A DNA stretch of 8,219 bases, taken from assembly GCA_003661385.1 (NCBI GenBank), contig QMWA01000070.1, forward strand, positions 1 through 8,219, written 5' to 3'. The position numbers and the translations under genes were made by a program. Positions 1 through 8,219 of this stretch are shown piece after piece (the first letter of the stretch is position 1; each line of letters opens with the position of its first letter). The DNA is from Thermoproteota archaeon (GTDB lineage Archaea > Korarchaeota > Korarchaeia > B14-G2). Under the pieces are notes generated by a model. The model did not search any database. It saw nothing but the letters and a program-made list of their open reading frames with translations, and was not told the origin of the DNA.

Positions 1-1965
1 ATCCTCCACTCCCCCCTCTCCTCTGCCCCAATCTACTCTGACATAGTCTCCATGTACAGGTATAGGCCTCCACTCCAGCATGCTGAGGTCCCATACAGAG
101 ACTACATGCTAGAGTACCCTCCTGCTGTCGGAGCCCTCATCTACCTGGCCTCGCTGAGCAGAAGCCTCCTCCTCTACTGCCTGGTGCACTTCCTTGCAAT
201 GGCGCCGTTCGCATACCTGCTTGGCCTCATGCTTGAGAGGCTTAAGCCAGACGTGAGCCCAGGCTACCTGCTAGCTGGAGGCTGCCTCCTGGTCTACGGC
301 TACTACAACTGGGATGTCCCAGCTGTGGCCCTGCTGCTGGCTTACATGCACTACAGGGGGGGAAGCTGGTGGAAGAGCGGGCTGACGCTAGGGGCAGCTA
401 GCCTCTTCAAGCTCTACCCGATATACGCTGTGGCAGCTGAGCTGAGGGAGAGGAGGCTGAAGTCAGCTGCCCTAGCCATAGCCCTCGCAGCGCTCACGCT
501 TCCACTGTGGCACATGTGCAAGGCAGACGAGTACCACTGGCGCTGGTGGATTGAGGACAGCTGGATGCTCTGGGTCCTCCCAAACACCCCAAGCGGCATA
601 AGGACAGCGAACTACCTGAGCCTAGCTGGCTCAGCTCTGGCCTTCACCCTAGCCCTCCTGGGGAAGGTGAACGAGCTCCAGCTCTTCACCCTCCTATTCC
701 TAACCCAGAAGGTCCATACACCACAGTTCAACATAGCTACAGCAGCTCTGGCAGCAGTCTACTCAGCAAACATCCAACTGCTAGTAGCTGAAGACCTGTG
801 CAACACCATGATAATACTCACATGGCACGCTGTAGAGGACCCACTAGCCCCCCTCTCGCTCCCACAGCTGTTCAGCTTAGCTAGGCAAGCTCTGCTAGCC
901 CTGCTTGCAGCAGGATTGAGGCCAACAGGCATGTGGAAGCTAGCTCCCCTAGCCATGTCAGCAGCAACCCTAGCCACCCTCCCATACCCTAATGCCCCCG
1001 TGTTCGACGAGCTCTACTACACTCAGGCAGCAGCATCAATCCTAAAATCCTGGAGAGACCCCAACGTGGAGCACCCTCCGCTAGCTAAGCTGATGATAGC
1101 AGCTGGAGCTCTAATAGCCCAAGAGACCTGGGCCCTCAGGCTCATCCCAGCGCTGGTGTCGATGGCAGCTGGAGCTTTGGGGCTACACCTCCTCTCAAGG
1201 AGGTACAAGGCTGACTTCACGGCAGCATACCTCATAGCCTACGGAGACCTCCTGTACTGGACCTTCACGAGGTCAGCTATGCTAGACGCCCCTGCAGCAA
1301 GCCTGATGCTCCTCTCGCTAGGCCTCCTGGAGGCTGGCTCACTGCTGTGGCCAGCTGCCTTAGCTGCATCGCTCTGCTGCAAGCTCTCCACAGCAGTGCC
1401 TGCTGCAGCCTACCTAGCAGCTAGGCGCCGCAAGCCCAGCCTAGGAGAGGCCACGGTGGCTGCAGCCAGCTTAGCTGCAGCAGCTCTCCTGAGCTCGCTG
1501 CTGCACTGCAAGCCTCCACACAAGGACATAGCTGACATGCTGGCAGCACACGCTTGCACAAGCTTCTCAAGGTGGGAGCTGAAGCTCATGGGCTGCAAGC
1601 CTCCACTAGACTGGCTTTTAACTCCGCCCTGGGCTGCTGAGAGCTACCTCAAGCTCAGGGCGCACGGCAGGCTCCTATACGACTTCAGAGAGGCCATATC
1701 CCCGCTGACATCTCTGCTCATAGCATACTCCATAGCAGCACTCAAGCTGGACCACAGCATAGCCCCCCTGTCAGCTGCGTCAGCAGCAACCCTAGCAGCC
1801 TACACCCTAGCTGCGCTAGCCATGAGGCCAACCTACACGCACTACGTCCTCCCACTGGTTCCGCTAGCAGCTATACCAGCAGCAAGGAGCAGGAGGGCGA
1901 GGGAGCTAGCCTACATCCAGCTGCTGCTGCTCACAGCAGCCTTCCCGATCAAACATGTGCACTGA
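1..1965 (+). CDS. Polytopic glycosyltransferase, GT87-like half fused to GT39/PMT-like half (5' partial)
   Basis: The frame is open from the first base (ATC CTC CAC...), so the 5' end lies outside the window. The ATG at 52 is probably internal, because the residues before it (SAPIYSDIVSMY) already look like the conserved start of the first luminal loop of GT87/DUF2029 enzymes. Numbering from that ATG, residues 14-24 (PYRDYMLEYPP), a KLYP at 120-123 and TPQFN at 223-227 resemble GT87 mannosyltransferase landmarks. A second half follows with GT39/PMT landmarks: the acidic pair in VFDELYY (D319 E320, the likely catalytic site in the first outer loop), EHPPLAKL (340-347), RSAMLDAP (407-414), a K at 444 and THYVLP near the end (596-601). 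Hydrophobic segments run throughout. GT-C enzymes of this kind move sugars from dolichyl-phosphate carriers on the outer membrane face. Acceptor and sugar are not visible. The assignment of the second half is firmer than that of the first. Confidence 0.75.
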   Translation: MLHSPLSSAPIYSDIVSMYRYRPPLQHAEVPYRDYMLEYPPAVGALIYLASLSRSLLLYCLVHFLAMAPFAYLLGLMLERLKPDVSPGYLLAGGCLLVYGYYNWDVPAVALLLAYMHYRGGSWWKSGLTLGAASLFKLYPIYAVAAELRERRLKSAALAIALAALTLPLWHMCKADEYHWRWWIEDSWMLWVLPNTPSGIRTANYLSLAGSALAFTLALLGKVNELQLFTLLFLTQKVHTPQFNIATAALAAVYSANIQLLVAEDLCNTMIILTWHAVEDPLAPLSLPQLFSLARQALLALLAAGLRPTGMWKLAPLAMSAATLATLPYPNAPVFDELYYTQAAASILKSWRDPNVEHPPLAKLMIAAGALIAQETWALRLIPALVSMAAGALGLHLLSRRYKADFTAAYLIAYGDLLYWTFTRSAMLDAPAASLMLLSLGLLEAGSLLWPAALAASLCCKLSTAVPAAAYLAARRRKPSLGEATVAAASLAAAALLSSLLHCKPPHKDIADMLAAHACTSFSRWELKLMGCKPPLDWLLTPPWAAESYLKLRAHGRLLYDFREAISPLTSLLIAYSIAALKLDHSIAPLSAASAATLAAYTLAALAMRPTYTHYVLPLVPLAAIPAARSRRARELAYIQLLLLTAAFPIKHVH

Positions 1966-1975
1966 GCTCACAACA

Positions 1976-1983
1976 CTTATTAA
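1976..1983 (+). promoter_or_regulatory. Archaeal TATA box (CTTATTAA) for the gene at 2005
   Basis: CTTATTAA sits in the 39-nt gap after the glycosyltransferase stop codon. Its centre is about 26 nt before the GTG at 2005, the usual distance from an archaeal TATA box to the transcription start. That predicts a leaderless mRNA beginning at the GTG. No Shine-Dalgarno motif precedes the GTG, which agrees. Confidence 0.6.
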
Positions 1984-2004
1984 CCACGAGAGTAAGCGTA
2001 GGCT

Positions 2005-2859
2005 GTGGTTGGCTTGGCATCTGAAAGGGAGAGGATCGCTGAGCTCCTGAGGAAGCTGGAGGAGAGGTACAGGAGAGGAGAGATAAGCTACGAGACGTAC
2101 ATGGAGCTCAGGAGGAAGTACGAGGCCAAGCTCAGGGCTCCGGCAGCTGCTCCGCCGCCTCCAGCTCCAGCTGCTCCTCCAGCCTATGCTCCTGCACGCG
2201 GGATCGGAGACTACTTCACGAGGGCGTGGGAGATAGCAAAGACCCACTATGTGCTCTTCGTCCCCATGGTCATAGCAGCTTTCGTCTCGCTGATATACTC
2301 CATCCTGGTTGTAGGCTCCATATTCGCTGCAATAACAGGCTTCACTCCACTAGGCCCAAGAGGCCCTGTGATGCCTGGCTTAAGGTGGATTGCTGGCATA
2401 GCAGCCGGCGGCATCATCGTAGCGGTGGTCACAATAGTGCTAGAGGGCTGGTGCATAGCACTAGTGAAGGAGTACATGGAGGGGCGTGTCCCAGACTTGT
2501 CCACCAGCTTCTCGTACACGATATCCAGGGCTCTGCCTCTAGTCGCTGTCTCTCTTGTAGTGGCGCTTGCAGTCGGCATAGGCCTTATGCTCTGCGTGAT
2601 ACCTGGCATAGTCCTGGCAGTGCTCCTCGCTCTAGCCCCTCAGGCTGTCATAGTGGATGGCATGGGCGTCTTGGACTCGATAGGGAAGAGCTTCGACATA
2701 GGGAAGAGGAACTTCTTCGAGCTCCTGATAATCCTCATAGTGGTCATAGTTGTGGCTGCCATACTATCGATGATACCGAAGATCGGAGGCTTCCTAGCCA
2801 CGCTCTCAATGGCATACTTCGCTGCAGTACTCACACTATACTACTATGACAAGAGGTAA
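2005..2859 (+). CDS. Membrane protein with N-terminal SHOCT-like helices, Pro/Ala linker and polytopic domain
   Basis: The 284-residue product has three parts. Residues 5-43 form a charged helical hairpin with the pattern ERIAELLRKLEERYRRGEIS...Y..LRRKYEAKL, which resembles the SHOCT domain (a short oligomerisation or interaction module). Residues 45-64 are a Pro/Ala-rich linker. Residues 68-284 carry about six hydrophobic segments (roughly 83-110, 127-148, 178-193, 194-213, 238-258 and 261-279). The stretch LCVIPGIVLAVLLALAPQ followed by DGMGVLDSIGKSF is typical of the loosely related DUF4013/YciC/GPDPase-membrane-domain proteins, whose function is unknown. GTG 2005 was chosen because it lies at the predicted transcription start; TTG 2014 is an alternative. 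The DUF2752 gene starts 24 nt after its stop and may be co-transcribed. It is probably an oligomeric cytoplasmic-membrane protein; no enzymatic motif is visible. Confidence 0.8.
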   Translation: MVGLASERERIAELLRKLEERYRRGEISYETYMELRRKYEAKLRAPAAAPPPPAPAAPPAYAPARGIGDYFTRAWEIAKTHYVLFVPMVIAAFVSLIYSILVVGSIFAAITGFTPLGPRGPVMPGLRWIAGIAAGGIIVAVVTIVLEGWCIALVKEYMEGRVPDLSTSFSYTISRALPLVAVSLVVALAVGIGLMLCVIPGIVLAVLLALAPQAVIVDGMGVLDSIGKSFDIGKRNFFELLIILIVVIVVAAILSMIPKIGGFLATLSMAYFAAVLTLYYYDKR

Positions 2860-2870
2860 CCTCCACCCAA

Positions 2871-2879
2871 CTTTTATTA
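2871..2879 (+). promoter_or_regulatory. Possible TATA box or T-rich end signal (CTTTTATTA) before the DUF2752 gene
   Basis: CTTTTATTA is a good TATA-box match, but it lies only about 9 nt before the GTG at 2884. A transcript started from it (about 25 nt downstream) would begin inside the coding region, where no ATG, GTG or TTG follows in frame before the conserved cysteines. It may instead be a T-rich termination signal for the upstream gene, or the DUF2752 start may be misplaced. Confidence 0.3.
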
Positions 2880-2883
2880 GGGG

Positions 2884-3279
2884 GTGATCCAGCTGAGGAG
2901 GCGGGAGAAGCCCAGCCTCCTGCCACTGGCTTTTTCAGCCCTGCTGATAGCAGGTGCCCTGGCAGTCCCAGTCAAGGAGGGGCAGAGGAAGCTGCCTTTC
3001 ACGCTCATAAGGTGCCCCTACAGGATGCTCACAGGGAAGCCCTGCCCACTCTGTGGTGGAACCAGGAGCTTCATCCACGCAGCACACCTTCACTTCAAGG
3101 ATTCAGTTGAGCTGAACCCTCTTGGCACCATAGCTTTCCTGCTTGTCGCAGCGAACATACCCTACCAGCTTGCGAAGCAGCTGAGGTATAGGTGGGGGCG
3201 CTGGGATTCGAACCCAGGATCTCCGGCTCCCAAGGCCGGCGTCTTAACCAAGCTAGACCACGCCCCCCAGGAGGCCTAG
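2884..3279 (+). CDS. DUF2752 small membrane protein with C-terminal tail read antisense through tRNA-Pro
   Basis: The frame encodes 131 residues. The DUF2752 signature is clear: CPYRMLTGKPCPLCGGTRSF with C44, C54 and C57, followed by an ELNPLG segment and a hydrophobic helix (about 80-97). Another hydrophobic helix lies at 11-30. The family is uncharacterised; its CxxCGxTR motif suggests metal or redox chemistry at the membrane. Residues 104-128 are exactly the antisense translation of the tRNA-Pro gene (WDSNPGSPAPKAG is a familiar anti-tRNA peptide), and the stop codon lies 10-12 nt beyond the tRNA. The conserved domain ends before that, so residues 1-103 are the real protein and the tail is probably a by-product of losing the native stop. 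The GTG start is uncertain: GGGGGTGAT, a Shine-Dalgarno-like string, overlaps it, as if translation began at CTG 2893. It likely forms a pair with the SHOCT-like membrane protein 24 nt upstream. Confidence 0.7.
   Translation: MIQLRRREKPSLLPLAFSALLIAGALAVPVKEGQRKLPFTLIRCPYRMLTGKPCPLCGGTRSFIHAAHLHFKDSVELNPLGTIAFLLVAANIPYQLAKQLRYRWGRWDSNPGSPAPKAGVLTKLDHAPQEA
3193..3267 (-). tRNA. tRNA-Pro(UGG), intronless
   Basis: The minus strand folds into a complete cloverleaf of 75 nt. It has a 7-bp acceptor stem GGGGGCG/CGCCCCC, a TG linker, D stem GTCT/AGAC with a GG-containing loop, anticodon stem CCGGC/GCCGG with loop CTTGGGA, a 5-nt variable region AGATC, and T stem CTGGG/CCCAG with loop TTCGAAT. Loop positions 34-36 read TGG, the anticodon for proline CCA and, by wobble, other CCN codons. 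The discriminator is A (complement of 3193), followed by CC and then T, so the 3' CCA is not fully encoded and must be added by tRNA nucleotidyltransferase. No intron is present. The gene lies entirely within the antisense of the DUF2752 reading frame. Confidence 0.97.
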
Positions 3280-3290
3280 AGCACCAGCTC

Positions 3291-3300
3291 CTATAAACTT
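3291..3300 (-). promoter_or_regulatory. TATA box of the tRNA-Pro gene (AAGTTTATAG)
   Basis: On the minus strand AAGTTTATAG is centred about 28 nt upstream of the first tRNA nucleotide at 3267, the normal position for an archaeal tRNA promoter. It lies in the short gap after the DUF445 gene, so the tRNA can be transcribed independently of the operon upstream. Confidence 0.65.
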
Positions 3301-3313
3301 TTGCACCCGCCAT

Positions 3314-3856
3314 CTAGAGCGCTGAGAGGACTAGAGCCTCCACTGCACCAACTATGGCCCCTATGGCAGCGTCATTCAGCGAGATGTAAGCCAGCTCCCT
3401 GCCTATGACCTCCTTGAATATCATGTCCAGCTCCCTGCTGCTCACCTCACTCATCTTCCTGGATATGAGGCTCCTCACATCTATCCTGCCCTCCATCCAC
3501 TTGACCACCTTGGACGCTGCAGCTGATGACACTGAAGCTGCAAGCCGAGAGAGCACCTTGCCAACTACAGGCAGCGCCGCAAGCTTCTCCTCCAAAGCAT
3601 CCCTTATGGCCTCCTCCTGAGCTCTCCTGATGGCCTCCAGGATGTCCTTGTCTGAGAGTATCCTCCTTGAAGTGACTTCAGCAGTCCTCTCAATCAGCTC
3701 CCTCCTCCTCTTCGGTATGACCCCCTGAAGCGTGACTGGCCCTACCTTGACTGGGTCAGCTGGGTGGAAGAGCATCCATATCGCTAGCCTGTTAGCTGTG
3801 TAGCCTATTAGAGCCCCGAAGGCTGAGCTCAGGAGGATGTGGAGGAGGAGCGTCAT
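3314..3856 (-). CDS. DUF445 family membrane protein
   Basis: The 180-residue product begins with a hydrophobic helix containing FGALIGYTANRLAIWMLFHP (13-32), then GVIPKRRRELIERTAEV (45-61). This is the family signature: a GxxIGxxTNxxAIxMLFxP helix followed by a GxIPKRR segment. Residues 64-155 are mostly charged amphipathic helix. The C-terminus (about 150-180) has EL..ISLNDAAIGAIVGAVEAL, the second membrane helix expected in this family. The function is unknown; YheB of Bacillus subtilis is a longer relative. The protein is short for the family but has both conserved ends. ATG 3856 was chosen over GTG 3862 because it gives an ATGA overlap with the preceding stop codon and is preceded by GGGGGTG at proper spacing, so translation is coupled. 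It is the last protein gene of the RHH operon. Confidence 0.85.
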   Translation of the reverse strand: MTLLLHILLSSAFGALIGYTANRLAIWMLFHPADPVKVGPVTLQGVIPKRRRELIERTAEVTSRRILSDKDILEAIRRAQEEAIRDALEEKLAALPVVGKVLSRLAASVSSAAASKVVKWMEGRIDVRSLISRKMSEVSSRELDMIFKEVIGRELAYISLNDAAIGAIVGAVEALVLSAL

Positions 3857-4248
3857 GCCCACCCCCTAGCAGCCTCCAAGCTGAGGACTGAGCCAGCAGC
3901 TGCCCCAGCTGCCACGACAGCTGAGATCGACGGGAGCTTCACAGCTGCCTCACTCCAGCTTGAGACGAGGCTCACCAGCCCGAGCCTGCTGAGAGGCATG
4001 TTGAGGACCACCACAAGCGCCACTACGCCCATCGCTACGCCAGCAGCTGCTGAGAGCCACTTCGCGAGCCCAATCCTCCTTCTCCTCCCAGCCTCAGAGG
4101 ATGCAGCGAGGAGCGCAGCTGAGGTGAAGCTGGAAGCCCAGGCTGCCAGGAGCTCTAGGACCTCGTAGCCGCTAGCCCATGCTAGCAGCAGGTATGCTGT
4201 CACACACACCGCTATGGCTACCCCAGCAGCTAGCCTAGCTGCCCCCAT
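3853..4248 (-). CDS. Small four-helix membrane protein of unknown function
   Basis: The 131-residue product has four hydrophobic segments at about 7-26, 31-50, 64-83 and 106-124. A basic loop (RRRR at 55-58) between the second and third suggests that loop faces the cytoplasm. No family is recognised and no catalytic or metal-binding pattern stands out; it is very rich in Ala, Ser and Val. The ATG at 4248 overlaps the end of the RHH gene by 14 nt, and the stop overlaps the DUF445 start by 4 nt (ATGA). The three genes are therefore almost certainly one transcriptional and translational unit. The neighbours suggest a membrane partner of the DUF445 protein; this is inference from context only. 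Confidence 0.75.
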   Translation of the reverse strand: MGAARLAAGVAIAVCVTAYLLLAWASGYEVLELLAAWASSFTSAALLAASSEAGRRRRIGLAKWLSAAAGVAMGVVALVVVLNMPLSRLGLVSLVSSWSEAAVKLPSISAVVAAGAAAGSVLSLEAARGWA

Positions 4249-4717
4249 GCTCAGCCCTCTTCACTCTCTTCACGAACCTCGACCTCCTGAGGACTAGGAG
4301 CCTTGAGAGCCCCTCTGGGACCTCAACCACCCCGCAGCTGAATATCCCAGCAACCTTCCTCTCGAAGAGCTCTCCTGTGACATCTGGCTTGAAGACGAGC
4401 CTGCCTATCCCAACGAAGACTATAGGCCTATCGCTCTCCTCTAGGAGCTCAGCGTCGACCTCCAGGTGCTCTATGTCCCTCATGAACACTGCTCCAGTCT
4501 TCTCGAGGGCGACCCCGACCTCCTTCAGCATCCCCCCTATAGCCGAGAGCGCCTTGCTCTGTGCTTCAGCTAAGGCGAGGTATAGCCTGAACGCCTGGTT
4601 CGTTATCTCGCCTATGCTCTTGCCAGTGAGCTTAGCTAGCTCGCTTATCCTGCTGTATACCTCCCGGCTGACACCTTTGATAGTGACAGCTCCCTTGTCA
4701 CCGCCCACACCAGTCAC
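4235..4717 (-). CDS. Ribbon-helix-helix (CopG/Arc-like) transcriptional regulator with novel C-terminal domain
   Basis: From GTG 4717 the product is 160 residues. Residues 9-49 have the RHH layout: a strand GAVTIKG (9-15), helix A from S17 to T31 (SREVYSRISELAKLT), a turn GKS, and helix B (IGEITNQAFRLYLAL, 35-49). RHH proteins bind DNA as dimers through paired strands. The remaining ~110 residues contain a helical stretch and a strand-rich part (RPIVFVGIGRLVF, then AGIFSCGVVEVPEG) ending in a basic tail. They match no effector domain I recognise and may be the sensor. Reading further upstream to TTG 4762 would put the palindrome and TATA box inside the coding region, so GTG 4717 is preferred, and GTG 4708 is also possible. 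The palindrome at 4720-4748 lies just before this start, which suggests autoregulation. It is the first gene of a three-gene operon. Confidence 0.8.
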   Translation of the reverse strand: MTGVGGDKGAVTIKGVSREVYSRISELAKLTGKSIGEITNQAFRLYLALAEAQSKALSAIGGMLKEVGVALEKTGAVFMRDIEHLEVDAELLEESDRPIVFVGIGRLVFKPDVTGELFERKVAGIFSCGVVEVPEGLSRLLVLRRSRFVKRVKRAEHGGS

Positions 4718-4719
4718 CC

Positions 4720-4748
4720 AAGTACAACCGGTATTACCGGTTGTACTT
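4720..4748. promoter_or_regulatory. Perfect 14-1-14 palindromic operator
   Basis: The left arm AAGTACAACCGGTA (4720-4733) is the exact reverse complement of the right arm TACCGGTTGTACTT (4735-4748), with one T between them. Within it ACCGGT occurs twice, each copy self-complementary, spaced by ATT. The element covers most of the TATA box on the minus strand and reaches the predicted transcription start, where a bound protein would block TBP/TFB or RNA polymerase. The adjacent gene encodes an RHH protein, which typically binds such repeated, two-fold symmetric sites. The symmetry is seen directly; the binding partner is inferred. Confidence 0.85.
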
Positions 4749-4751
4749 AAG
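4744..4751 (-). promoter_or_regulatory. TATA box (CTTAAGTA) of the RHH/DUF445 operon
   Basis: CTTAAGTA on the minus strand is centred about 30 nt before GTG 4717. It predicts a start near 4722 and a leader of only a few bases. It overlaps the outer end of the right palindrome arm. Confidence 0.5.
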
Positions 4752-4795
4752 TGCTCCGTCAAGCCCTAGCCTAAGCTCATCCAGCAGCCCCCCAG

Positions 4796-4809
4796 CAGCT
4801 TACAAGCTG
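4796..4809. repeat. Short inverted repeat CAGCTT-AC-AAGCTG
   Basis: A 6-bp perfect inverted repeat with a 2-nt spacer lies in the 140-nt gap between the YjbQ gene and the RHH gene. It could be a small hairpin or an upstream protein site, but AGCT-based words are so common here that chance is a real alternative. I see no gene or RNA fold in the rest of this gap beyond the palindrome and TATA box. Confidence 0.3.
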
Positions 4810-4857
4810 AACCCACTGTAGATCCAGGAGATAAGCCTAGCAGAGCAGCATAGGCCC

Positions 4858-5277
4858 CTACTCTCCCATGACCTGGACTATGACCCTCCTTCTCCTCGGC
4901 CTAGTGTCCAGCTCGATGAAGACAAGCTGCTGCCACGTCCCCAGGGGGAGCTTTGAGTCCACTACTGGTATGGTGTAGTCTGCCTTGAGGAACGAGGCCC
5001 TGACATGAGAGTGCCCGTTGTAGTCCCCCCAGGTCTTGTGGTGCTCGTACTCTATGCCCTTTGGGAAAAGCCTCTCCAAGGCTGCTGGTATGTCCTTCTT
5101 GAGCCCAGGCTCATACTCCATGGTGGTCACAGCGCAAGTCGAGCCTACAGCGAACACGACTGCTATGCCGTTCCTCACACCTGACTCCGAGACCACATCC
5201 TGTACCCTCTGTGTTATGTCTATGATGTCCACCTCGCCCCTGGTCTGAAGCTCTATCTCAGCTGTATACACCTTCAA
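4858..5277 (-). CDS. YjbQ/UPF0047 family protein
   Basis: The 139-residue protein matches the UPF0047 family over its whole length. Landmarks are VFAVGSTCAVTTMEYEPG (41-58, the archaeal version of the HTTxxxxxxE block), YEHHKTWGDYNGHSHVRAS (77-95, holding the conserved histidines), IPVVDSKLPLGTWQQ (103-117) and LDTRPRRRRVIVQVMG near the end. Family members form compact trimers; the E. coli protein YjbQ has been reported to have weak thiamine-phosphate-synthase activity, but the physiological role is unsettled. The TTG start at 5277 is preferred because AGGTGAT (5288-5282) lies four bases before it as a strong Shine-Dalgarno site. GTG 5286, directly abutting the reductase stop, would add three residues. 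It is the last gene of the ferredoxin/reductase operon. Confidence 0.9.
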   Translation of the reverse strand: MKVYTAEIELQTRGEVDIIDITQRVQDVVSESGVRNGIAVVFAVGSTCAVTTMEYEPGLKKDIPAALERLFPKGIEYEHHKTWGDYNGHSHVRASFLKADYTIPVVDSKLPLGTWQQLVFIELDTRPRRRRVIVQVMGE

Positions 5278-5286
5278 CCCAATCAC

Positions 5287-6459
5287 CTAGAGGAGCTTCC
5301 TGACCAAGGCTAGGAGCTTGGGGTGTGCTACTATCTTCCCTGCAGCCACCCTGTAGTTCCCTCTGGAGAGCTCAACCAGGTCATCTCCCCTCCAGACCCT
5401 GGCCAGGTAGTTCATCTCATCGTCGCTGAGCTTCTCAGCGAACCTCCTGACCTTAAGTATCCTCTCAAGCCTCTTGCCATGTGTGCTCCACCACATGCTC
5501 TCATACTCCCTGAGGAGCCTGAGATCTCCCTCGTGCAGGGCTTTAGCTATGGCCTGGCCTGCTAGCTTGCCAGCTGTCATCGCCTCGTAGACTCCACCTC
5601 CATGGAGGGGGTTCACCTGCCTAGCTGCATCGCCTACCACCAGCAGGTTGTCTTTGACGAGCTGCTTGAGGAAGCCTCCTACGGGAACGCAGCCGACGTT
5701 CACCTCCAGTATGCTCCCCCTCCTGAGCTCTGGCCTGCTCTGGATGAACTTGTCCAGCAGGAGCTTAGCCTGCTCCTCCAGGTGCCCTCCTATCCCTATC
5801 CCGACGTTAGCTCTGTCTTCGTCCTTTGGGAAGACCCATATGTAGCCTCTTGGAGCTATCTTGTTCCCCATGTACATGTGGATGAGGTCAGGGTCCTCTA
5901 TGCTTATGCCAGCCATCTCATACTCGAAGCAGGAGTCCAGGTCGCTTGGCTTAAGCCTCGTATCCAAGCCAGCTTGCCTGGCTATCTGAGACTCCACCCC
6001 GTCAGCTGCCACAACCACCTTGCACCTGACCTCAGCTTCCCTGCCATCATGCCGCCTGACCTTGACCCCAGCAGGCCTCCCAGACTCGAGCTTCAGCCTC
6101 GCATACGCCCCTGCCTCGACGTGTGCTCCAGCTCTAGCAGCCTCTGCAGCGAGGTGCTTGTCGAACATCTTCCTCTCTATGATGTAGCCCATGACCTCAC
6201 TGAATCTCGCCTTCACTGGAGTGCCATCTGGAGCGTAGACTGCAAACCCGTATATCTCCCTGTTGATGAACCTGGGGTCAGCTGGGATGCTGAGCTCCCT
6301 GAAAGCTCTTATTCCAAGCCCCTCCCCACACCTCTTAGGGGTCCCTATCTCGAGGCTCTTGTCCAGGAGGAGCACGCTGAGCCCAGCTTCAGCAGCGTAC
6401 CTGGCTGCCATGGAGCCGGCTGGCCCAGCTCCAACCACCACAACGTCGTAGTCAGCCAC
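5287..6459 (-). CDS. Geranylgeranyl reductase family FAD protein (digeranylgeranylglycerophospholipid reductase)
   Basis: This flavoenzyme hydrogenates the double bonds of geranylgeranyl chains, saturating archaeal ether lipids. The 390-residue product is of normal length. It has the N-terminal dinucleotide fold DYDVVVVGAGPAGS (GxGxxG at 10-15), PKRCGEG (41-47) with the cysteine that lies near the flavin in characterised reductases, and VVAADGVES (149-157). It also has GYIWVFP (205-211, the family's substrate-side YxWxFP motif) and VVGDAARQVNPLHGGG (274-289, FAD binding). GTG 6459 is chosen because GGGTGGT precedes it at suitable spacing and because MADYDVVVVG fits the usual family start; GTG 6468 is the longer alternative. 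It overlaps the ferredoxin stop by 8 nt. The substrate could be the phospholipid, geranylgeranyl diphosphate or another prenyl chain; the family cannot be split by eye. Confidence 0.93.
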   Translation of the reverse strand: MADYDVVVVGAGPAGSMAARYAAEAGLSVLLLDKSLEIGTPKRCGEGLGIRAFRELSIPADPRFINREIYGFAVYAPDGTPVKARFSEVMGYIIERKMFDKHLAAEAARAGAHVEAGAYARLKLESGRPAGVKVRRHDGREAEVRCKVVVAADGVESQIARQAGLDTRLKPSDLDSCFEYEMAGISIEDPDLIHMYMGNKIAPRGYIWVFPKDEDRANVGIGIGGHLEEQAKLLLDKFIQSRPELRRGSILEVNVGCVPVGGFLKQLVKDNLLVVGDAARQVNPLHGGGVYEAMTAGKLAGQAIAKALHEGDLRLLREYESMWWSTHGKRLERILKVRRFAEKLSDDEMNYLARVWRGDDLVELSRGNYRVAAGKIVAHPKLLALVRKLL

Positions 6460-6628
6460 GCCTACCACCCACTATAGGCGATGGGAGCGCTGTTGGGCAT
6501 ACCCTGACGCAGAGCATGCAGCCACTACACTTCTCAAGGTCTATGTCAGCGCCATCCTGCATCTCAACTGCCCCAGTTGGGCACACAGCTACGCACCCAC
6601 CGCAGCCATAGCAGCCCTCTACCCTCAA
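6452..6628 (-). CDS. Small 2[4Fe-4S] ferredoxin, likely electron donor to geranylgeranyl reductase
   Basis: A 58-residue frame from TTG 6628 to TGA 6454-6452 holds two full cluster motifs. These are C6xxC9xxC12xxxC16P (CYGCGGCVAVCP) and C34xxC37xxC40xxxC44P (CSGCMLCVRVCP), each followed by T, as in clostridial-type 2[4Fe-4S] ferredoxins. The spacer carries EMQDGADIDLEK, the usual strand-turn-strand. The only in-frame start after the upstream stop is TTG 6628, preceded by GGTG at 5-nt spacing and with a TATA box about 33 nt upstream. It overlaps the reductase gene by 8 nt, so the two are coupled. Ferredoxin encoded beside geranylgeranyl reductase is an established functional pair in Methanosarcina acetivorans, where it supports full lipid saturation. 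The tail PIVGGRRG after the last cluster is short. Confidence 0.92.
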   Translation of the reverse strand: MRVEGCYGCGGCVAVCPTGAVEMQDGADIDLEKCSGCMLCVRVCPTALPSPIVGGRRG

Positions 6629-6656
6629 GCTTGCACCACGGTACCTACCTCAAGCT

Positions 6657-6665
6657 GTTTAAAAG
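6657..6665. promoter_or_regulatory. Shared bidirectional TATA box (GTTTAAAAG / CTTTTAAAC)
   Basis: The minus strand reads CTTTTAAAC, a near-consensus archaeal TATA box about 33 nt before the ferredoxin TTG. The plus strand reads GTTTAAAAG with its centre 25 nt before ATG 6686, which would give a leaderless transcript. The core TTTAAA is its own reverse complement. No other AT-rich site exists in the short gap between the two divergent genes, so this single element probably serves both directions. Confidence 0.65.
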
Positions 6666-6685
6666 CCTGAGTGCTCTGGGAGGTG

Positions 6686-7324
6686 ATGGAGCTAGCTGAC
6701 ATCTACTCCACGCTGGAGGGCCCTAGGAGGCTCATCCTAGTGGTGCACTGCAGGGAGCTCCCTGACTTAGAGCCTCTGCTCGCTGAGGCAGCATGCTCAC
6801 TCAGCTCTGGCAGGCTTGTCATAGCCAGGTGCCTGGATGAGGGCAGGTACATCAGCACTGTGAGCCCAAGGTACCTGAAGTCCAGGGCTGGCAGGCTCCA
6901 CCTCAAGCTGCTATCAGAGCTCAAGCCCGACATCACCGTGGAGCTCCACTCCTATAGCCCGAGAGCAGCTCCAGCCTTGACCAGCCCATGGAGGAGGCTT
7001 GCCCCACCCCTGGTAGAGCTTGAGGCAGGCCTGCTCCTGGGGTCTGTCCCACCTCCCCTAGCTTCACCGCTCAGGCTGCAGGGCATCTCCCTGCTCCTCC
7101 CCAGGGTCTACCTGACCCTAGAGGTCGAGAGAGGCTCCAACAGAGCCTTGGAGGCTGCAGCCAGGGTCATGAGGCAGGCTGCCACATGCTCCAGCGGCTT
7201 GGAGCTCATCTACTGGCTCTTCAAGCTTTACCCGAGGCAGCTAGCTAAGGCAGCTAGGAGGTTCTCCAGGTACTACATGAAGGCTGCTAGAGCAGCTAGG
7301 ACAGCTAGGTTGACGAGGCTGTGA
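6686..7324 (+). CDS. M14 (zinc carboxypeptidase/deacylase)-like protein, resembling archaeal DUF2119
   Basis: The 212-residue product has spaced residues like those of M14-type zinc hydrolases. An HxxE pair follows the first strand (LILVVHCREL, H21 and E24), a third possible zinc ligand is in TVELHSYS (H88), and a possible catalytic glutamate is in YLTLEVERG (E146, as in the TxE motif of AstE/aspartoacylase-type enzymes). YISTVSPRY (55-63), LVELEAGLLLGSVPP (109-123) and the ELHSY block recall the archaeal DUF2119 family, an assignment made from memory of the pattern. The C-terminal ~30 residues are basic and helical (KAARRFSRYY...KAARAARTARLTRL) and may touch membrane or nucleic acid. ATG 6686 sits at the transcription start predicted from the TATA box, whereas GTG 6671 would lie upstream of it. 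The last 52 nt overlap the convergent gene. No substrate can be named. Confidence 0.65.
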   Translation: MELADIYSTLEGPRRLILVVHCRELPDLEPLLAEAACSLSSGRLVIARCLDEGRYISTVSPRYLKSRAGRLHLKLLSELKPDITVELHSYSPRAAPALTSPWRRLAPPLVELEAGLLLGSVPPPLASPLRLQGISLLLPRVYLTLEVERGSNRALEAAARVMRQAATCSSGLELIYWLFKLYPRQLAKAARRFSRYYMKAARAARTARLTRL

Positions 7325-8219
7325 GCTGCAGCAACTGGGGCTACAGCCCTCACAGTGCTCATGGAGAGAGCCCTCCTGGTTGAGATGGCTGAGAACAGGC
7401 TGTGGAGCAGAGCCTTAGCTGCAGCTGAGGCAGCTATAGCGTAAGCCCATGCTCCAGCCAGCACAGCCACCAAAGCAGCAGCAGCGCTCTCACCTAGCCC
7501 AAAATCCAGCCCACATGTGAAGCCAGCTAGCCCAGCTTCAGCAGGGTCTCTGGGAGAGGCGAGGAGGGCAGCCCTAGCCTTAGCAAGCTCCTCCACTACT
7601 GGGGCGTATAAGGCCATGAGAGCTGCCAGCCCTAGAGCAGCTGTGCTCCTGAGGAGGAGCACCACAGGGACTTCAGCTGCAGCAGCTAAAGCCACTGCTA
7701 GAGCCCCACCGGCAGCTGCCTTAGCAGCCACCCTAGGCGACCCTGAGATGAGGGGCTCTGCTGCAGCTCCGGTAGCAGCTAGGAGCTCACATGCCACGAG
7801 AGCTGACGCCCCAGCCAGAGAGGCTGTGAAGGCAGCGTAAGGCAGGAGGTCCCGTGGGCTGTACGCGACACCTGACGCTATGTTCACAAGAAGCGGGACG
7901 TGGAAGAGCTTGCTCAGCACGCCCAGCGCCCTGCCAGCCAGCGCTGCAACGGGGTTTGCTCTCAGCGAGACTGGAGCTATGTTCGCTACCACAACTCCCC
8001 CCACCAGGAAGGAGTAGAGGACATTGGCTTCCCTGGAGTCCTTTGAGAAAGCTGATATCGCTACTCCTATGCTTGAGACAGCCAGCCCGAAGAGGGCCTC
8101 CAGGGCAGCTAAAGTAGCCTTCCCCCTCATCTCGACTCCCATGGCGCCCAGCAGAGCCATCCAAGCGAGGAAGAGGCCAGCTGATGCCATGGTGTACGTC
8201 AGGGCCTTCCCAGCTACTA
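7273..8219 (-). CDS. ABC-2 permease-like region fused to PrsW-like intramembrane protease (5' partial)
   Basis: The frame stays open upstream of ATG 8190 to the window edge (VAGKALTYT precedes it), so the N-terminus is missing. Numbered from ATG 8190, residues 1-140 are hydrophobic helices with the ABC-2/NatB-like stretch VAISAFSKDSREANVLYSF...NIAP..L..NPVAAL. Residues 155-305 match PrsW (MEROPS M82 type, glutamic intramembrane protease). The four expected motifs appear in order: EExxK in APVVEELAK (E200, E201, K204), FxxxE in DFGLGE (F230, E234), H263 in LLHSLFSA, and H290 with N294 in AAHSLVNLA. These form the intramembrane active site in PrsW, which cleaves membrane-bound substrates such as anti-sigma factors. 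H290 is encoded inside the 52-nt overlap with the convergent gene, confirming that this 3' end is real. An ABC ATPase partner, if any, lies outside the window. Confidence 0.75.
   Translation of the reverse strand, partial: VAGKALTYTMASAGLFLAWMALLGAMGVEMRGKATLAALEALFGLAVSSIGVAISAFSKDSREANVLYSFLVGGVVVANIAPVSLRANPVAALAGRALGVLSKLFHVPLLVNIASGVAYSPRDLLPYAAFTASLAGASALVACELLAATGAAAEPLISGSPRVAAKAAAGGALAVALAAAAEVPVVLLLRSTAALGLAALMALYAPVVEELAKARAALLASPRDPAEAGLAGFTCGLDFGLGESAAAALVAVLAGAWAYAIAASAAAKALLHSLFSAISTRRALSMSTVRAVAPVAAAHSLVNLAVLAALAAFM

Follow-up and report, generated by a model that had tools for sequence, protein, structure and literature searches.

MetJ, a ribbon-helix-helix (RHH) repressor, places one dimer on each of its tandem 8-bp boxes and regulates its own gene. 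The MetJ boxes are self-complementary and have the consensus GAGACGTCTC (PMC13379313). Among archaeal viruses, the RHH proteins SvtR and AvtR repress their own genes and are thought to oligomerise along the DNA into the BRE/TATA region; AvtR is a tandem RHH monomer (PMC5569661). SegB of the Sulfolobales recognises the motif TCTAGASTCTAGA at many chromosomal sites and has segA as its partner (PMC12284271), and RelB of Escherichia coli is an RHH autorepressor acting at relO, where short half sites are repeated and the distance between them matters (PMC2812701).

The locus described here lies in an 8,219-nucleotide stretch of DNA from a Thermoproteota archaeon (contig QMWA01000070.1, positions 1 to 8,219), which we analysed as a whole and refer to as the window. 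It shares with MetJ a candidate RHH repressor and self-complementary boxes, which are short, tandem and regularly spaced over the gene's own promoter, but it differs in the box, in a spacing of 9 bp in most lineages, in the archaeal promoter and in the C-terminal domain of the protein. The box is GTAWTAC, not AGACGTCT, and the MetJ family proper gave no match in Pfam or PDB sequence searches at the limits used. SvtR and AvtR differ in being viral, in their published consensus sites, which form no 9-bp array, and in lacking the C-terminal domain of the window family. Like the window protein, SegB is an RHH protein of archaeal chromosomes and has palindromic sites in front of the operon that encodes it; TCTAGASTCTAGA is absent from the RHH promoter in the window and its relatives, and no ParA-like neighbour was noticed. 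RelB differs in its 6-bp repeats, its toxin-antitoxin context and its co-repressor toxin. Our search of the open literature library, which was not exhaustive, found no paper on this RHH family or on the array. We conclude with good confidence, from comparison of sequences, that the element serves an archaeal family of RHH regulators as autoregulatory operator, on whose 9-bp array the dimers would line up.

The palindrome and its boxes

The sequence AAGTACAACCGGTA-T-TACCGGTTGTACTT fills positions 4720-4748 exactly, its two perfectly complementary 14-nt arms enclosing one central T. It extends imperfectly to 4715-4753 (19-nt arms, 89%) and is the sole palindrome in the window with arms of more than 8 nt. 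Base composition predicts 9e-5 such palindromes in the window and 0.019 in the 1.74-Mb genome, which bears out an earlier note on this DNA that had called the complementary arms far beyond chance. A search for further copies with 0-3 mismatches found this single occurrence in its own genome, and a sequence search of 100 related genomes found none. The same note had placed the palindrome over the promoter of an RHH gene, and this holds. The gene (4235-4717, minus strand) encodes 160 amino acids from a GTG start at 4717, so that its start codon begins 3 nt beyond one end of the palindrome, and a weak TATA-like element, CTTAAGTA (4744-4751, minus strand), overlaps the other end. This putative promoter element lies about 30 nt upstream of the start codon and was recognised by alignment to the TATA boxes of orthologs. 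Its position puts the expected transcription start at about 4720, and the gene is probably leaderless.

Read on the minus strand, the region resolves into four boxes, GTACAAC-cg-GTAATAC-cg-GTTGTAC-tt-GGGTGAC. The palindrome spans three of them and the fourth sits at the start codon. Box 1 (GTACAAC, 4740-4746) overlaps the TATA-like element and, in a register alignment, falls on the ATATNNC/TATA box of orthologs. Promoter comparison identified box 2 (GTAATAC, 4731-4737), the centre of the palindrome and an exact match to the family consensus, and box 3 (GTTGTAC, 4722-4728). Box 4 (GGGTGAC, 4713-4719), placed by register alignment, is a weak match and includes the GTG start codon. Taken alone, the window gives a weak lag-9 signal (z about 1). 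Because the boxes and many of the linkers are self-complementary, runs of good boxes automatically form long palindromes; as judged from its letters, the window palindrome arises in this way, from neighbouring palindromic boxes separated by palindromic CG linkers.

The array in related archaea

A search for orthologs of the RHH gene yielded 17 further genomes of the window's class, one of which, carrying the array, we take to be Korarchaeum cryptofilum (G002), and one genome of a sister class. Placed in register, their promoters contain self-complementary boxes with a period of 9 bp and the consensus (GTAWTAC-NN)n, which run through the TATA box to the start, as in G004 (GTAATGC-tt-ATATATC-aa-GTACTTC-at-GTATTAC-tg-GTGTGAC-at-GTATGAC). 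Box 1 of the orthologs coincides with the TATA box and box 4 with the start or ribosome-binding region; read from the sequences, box 4 in many of them (GTGTGAC/GGTGAT) also resembles a ribosome-binding site. Part of the periodic alignment could therefore be created by TATA and ribosome-binding signals in boxes 1 and 4; boxes 0, 2 and 3 are periodic too. Among periods of 7-12, period 9 scored highest in the window and in all 17 class-level orthologs examined. It was the best period in 19/19 RHH promoters versus 14% of 84 control upstream regions, and the four controls scoring 19 were the array seen from a divergent gene or a Heimdallarchaeal RHH gene. Motif-free autocorrelation of the 60 nt upstream of the start gave z values of 8.0 at lag 9, 7.3 at lag 18 and 4.9 at lag 27 across the class, with little signal at other lags; these values were computed on related orthologs and are not probabilities. 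A coding origin of the period (9 bp being three codons) was rejected, as the phase of the array relative to the reading frame varies and the array of several orthologs contains in-frame stops.

The literal palindrome, which the earlier note had expected upstream of orthologous genes, is missing there, yet the expectation holds in substance: every class-level ortholog promoter carries the array. In G014, the nearest ortholog at about 50% identity, a different perfect palindrome, ACCAGTAATACTAGTATTACTGGT, directly follows the TATA box. In the window the centre of symmetry falls on a box, in G014 between two, and it is this shift that leaves the box conserved and the palindrome not. The array is weak or absent at some homologs (L097, L125 and L013). 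In a paralogous RHH gene (L023, G007:C56) the TATA box is followed by GCATTAC and GCACTAC at an interval of 11 bp, which may represent another class of spacing.

R1, a sequence profile built from the array, was run against 26 whole genomes of the class. It marked one clear place per genome, the RHH promoter, and scored no other site above 13 bits; where a clear match was missing, the genome lacked a full-length ortholog. No regulon for the RHH protein was found in the class, and GTAWTACNNGTAWTAC pairs were not enriched genome-wide there. Since a scan of the window's own class is partly circular, homologs from other classes served as held-out data. The family is carried by 51/147 genomes of one other class and 20/150 of another. 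In 22 non-redundant held-out promoters of Sulfolobales/Desulfurococcales type, from another class, autocorrelation peaked again at lag 9 (z 8.9) and lag 18 (z 4.0). The best R1 match in the genome was the RHH promoter in 13 of the 33 held-out genomes with a class-level homolog. When 46 further genomes were scanned, all matches of at least 18 bits (9 genomes) were RHH promoters, and the maximum in 10 genomes of the same held-out class without a homolog was 16.3 bits. Exact matches to GTAWTACATGTAWTAC in two complete genomes, G423 (presumably Staphylothermus marinus) and G443, were the RHH promoter. With up to two mismatches, GTAWTACATGTAWTAC matches outnumbered those of a reversed control in G203 (11 versus 5), G423 (12 versus 2) and G531 (18 versus 3), an excess that hints at further sites outside the RHH promoter and a possible small regulon.

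Querying genome contigs with a single protein returned no relatives; querying them with the alignment did, and the named metagenome-assembled genomes with homologs were Thermoproteota/Crenarchaeota and two Candidatus Heimdallarchaeota. One Heimdallarchaeal homolog has the array GTAATAC-ca-ATCATAC-aa-ATCATAC; L046 has only two boxes, GTCATAC-aa-ATCACAC, far upstream of its start. The Heimdallarchaeal homologs L046:3527-4423 and L047:3968-4867 are double-length, with two RHH and two C-terminal domains per chain. From this domain content each reads as a fused dimer, reminiscent of the tandem RHH of AvtR.

Some lineages space their boxes differently. Promoters of family f68 have an 8-bp period (z 6.3 at lag 8, 3.9 at lag 16 and 2.8 at lag 24 against mononucleotide shuffles), and 8-bp spacing recurs in the genus of G411, which we take to be Sulfolobus acidocaldarius (G426 being presumably Sulfurisphaera tokodaii). 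The homolog in G411 occupies 196267-196731 on the minus strand. Thermoplasma-type homologs also have an 8-bp version of the array; G590 and G583 we assume to be Thermoplasma acidophilum and Thermoplasma volcanium. GTAAACCG/GGTTTACC boxes at 8-bp spacing adjoin the TATA box in L096, L098, L099 and L100, and L099 has four near-perfect tandem copies beside it. Most likely, the pairing of protein and operator has been kept since early archaeal history.

The RHH protein and its neighbours

The best reading of the window protein is an RHH protein, a view that draws on a weak Pfam match, the family alignment, an AlphaFold model and modest structural matches. Its top Pfam match was RHH_1 (E 0.016, below the cut-off), and no curated Pfam or NCBIfam family passed the cut-off. 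In the family alignment, a conserved TI[KR]G strand (TIRG/TIKG) precedes two helices, and a variable linker separates these from the C-terminal region, which is again conserved. In the AlphaFold monomer model (mean pLDDT 74.7), helices at residues 18-31 and 35-59 follow the conserved TI[KR]G segment, and the RHH strand itself is not formed; the RHH helices are of moderate confidence and the C-terminal domain of beta-beta-alpha repeats reaches about 90. The best structural matches were the RHH proteins 7wj0 (Z 5.3, rmsd 2.6, 49 aligned) and 3ft7 (Z 5.2, rmsd 2.3, 44 aligned), both at modest Z. For the C-terminal part, Foldseek returned no match below E 0.001, and the VIA-align rows that resemble a small beta-solenoid or LRR all had Z below 5. 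PDB sequence search matches, comprising designed repeat proteins and weak ones, were judged spurious. No homologs of the protein were found in 50,697 phage records or in a plasmid search.

The residue in the reading strand and the linkers of the array vary together. Lysine (in the window, G014 and the Thermoplasma-type homologs) pairs with GC-rich linkers (GC 0.50-0.51) and arginine with AT linkers (GC 0.10-0.12), an association that would be expected if the RHH protein reads the array and that reflects only about two independent changes.

In the window, the end of the RHH gene is overlapped by a 131-amino-acid hydrophobic protein without an assigned family (3853-4248, minus strand), and this reading frame in turn by a 182-amino-acid DUF445 (PF04286) protein (3314-3862, minus strand). 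Both are probable members of a local operon, and the operator probably controls all three overlapping genes. In the relatives examined, with genes named by eye from sequence, neither downstream gene was seen 3' of the RHH gene, which is followed instead by an ABC exporter (G014), by beta-lactamase-fold or RNase J-like genes (G007, G010 and G024) or by convergent genes. An operon headed by the RHH gene, as the earlier note had proposed, thus stands as a local arrangement and falls as a conserved unit; given this variation, the conserved unit is the RHH gene together with its promoter array. Just upstream of the RHH gene, a UPF0047/YjbQ family gene and a geranylgeranyl reductase-type flavoprotein gene are adjacent on the same strand (4858-6468). 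A tRNA-Pro (TGG) at 3191-3267 on the minus strand overlaps the 3' part of a hypothetical plus-strand reading frame (2884-3279).

Autoregulation and other readings of the array

A beta-sheet DNA reader and tandem self-complementary boxes on its own core promoter fit cooperative RHH autorepression of the kind known from MetJ, described for RelB (PMC2812701) and suggested for SvtR and AvtR (PMC5569661). Each RHH dimer would probably recognise a single 7-bp box, the self-complementary GTAWTAC, and several such dimers would align cooperatively on boxes that follow each other at 9 bp or, in some lineages, at 8 bp. They would then cover the DNA from the TATA box through the transcription and translation starts, which would block TBP, TFB and RNA polymerase and limit the protein's own synthesis. 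We infer binding of the RHH protein to the array, one dimer per box, and repression as the outcome, as well as the identity of any signal that may act through the C-terminal domain. The suggestion of an autoregulatory switch has gained from the comparison: an operator-like element lies at the RHH promoter, the array is tied to that promoter across lineages, and autoregulation is its most likely role.

It is unlikely that the protein is instead a dosage-controlled DNA-coating or chromosome-organising factor and not an ordinary regulator. The promoter array would then be its nucleation site and nearly its only specific site, and the protein itself would be an RHH protein of ancient archaeal descent whose C-terminal domain resembles a solenoid.

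We give slightly less credence to a single palindromic operator, particular to the window operon, on which two RHH dimers would occupy ACCGGT half sites. Copies of ACCGGT are likewise 9 bp apart in the window, and CCGGTAAACCGG is present in promoters of Thermoplasma-type homologs, but ACCGGT is missing from nearly all orthologous arrays, to which GTAWTAC at 9 bp is common, and the displaced centre in G014 also argues against one symmetric operator. The arrangement of two dimers on ACCGGT-ATT-ACCGGT was accordingly given up: ACCGGT marks where two boxes join, and what is conserved is GTAWTAC every 9 bp.

That the array serves a different regulator, or is a partition-type (centromere-like) site, and is not bound by the product of the RHH gene seems very improbable. 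Precedents exist in ParR, SegB and omega, RHH proteins whose binding sites are arrays or palindromes close to the genes that encode them (PMC5016525, PMC12284271), but from lineage to lineage the array accompanies the RHH gene and its promoter, and inspection of the flanking reading frames by eye revealed no ParA/ParM-like neighbour.

An RNA hairpin acting in the transcript as attenuator, terminator or riboswitch was rejected as highly implausible. The window strand does fold very stably (-31 kcal/mol, z -5.3), but the predicted start lies at or beyond the palindrome, most of which is therefore probably untranscribed, 8 orthologs do not share the hairpin (z -1.9 to +0.8), and neither an Rfam match nor a terminator pattern was found. 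Least credible of all is the antitoxin of a toxin-antitoxin operon, which the many antitoxins among RHH autoregulators and the small overlapping reading frames of the window operon might suggest, but the downstream partners vary in the relatives examined and include no conserved adjacent toxin gene of the kind that marks type II antitoxins, DUF445 is not a known toxin family, and the C-terminal domain is predicted to be well folded (pLDDT about 90) where typical antitoxin tails are disordered.

With cooperative autorepression by the RHH protein as the preferred reading, one operator grammar marks the promoter of an orthologous regulator across Korarchaeia-type, Sulfolobales/Desulfurococcales-type and Heimdallarchaeal genomes, and Thermoplasma-type genomes have it in an 8-bp variant. 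Such wide conservation of a protein-operator pair is uncommon. It makes the evolution of a binding site, in its 8-bp or 9-bp spacing and in lysine or arginine in the reading strand, directly testable, and it points to an unstudied protein family that is apparently present in a genetically tractable archaeon, presumably Sulfolobus acidocaldarius.
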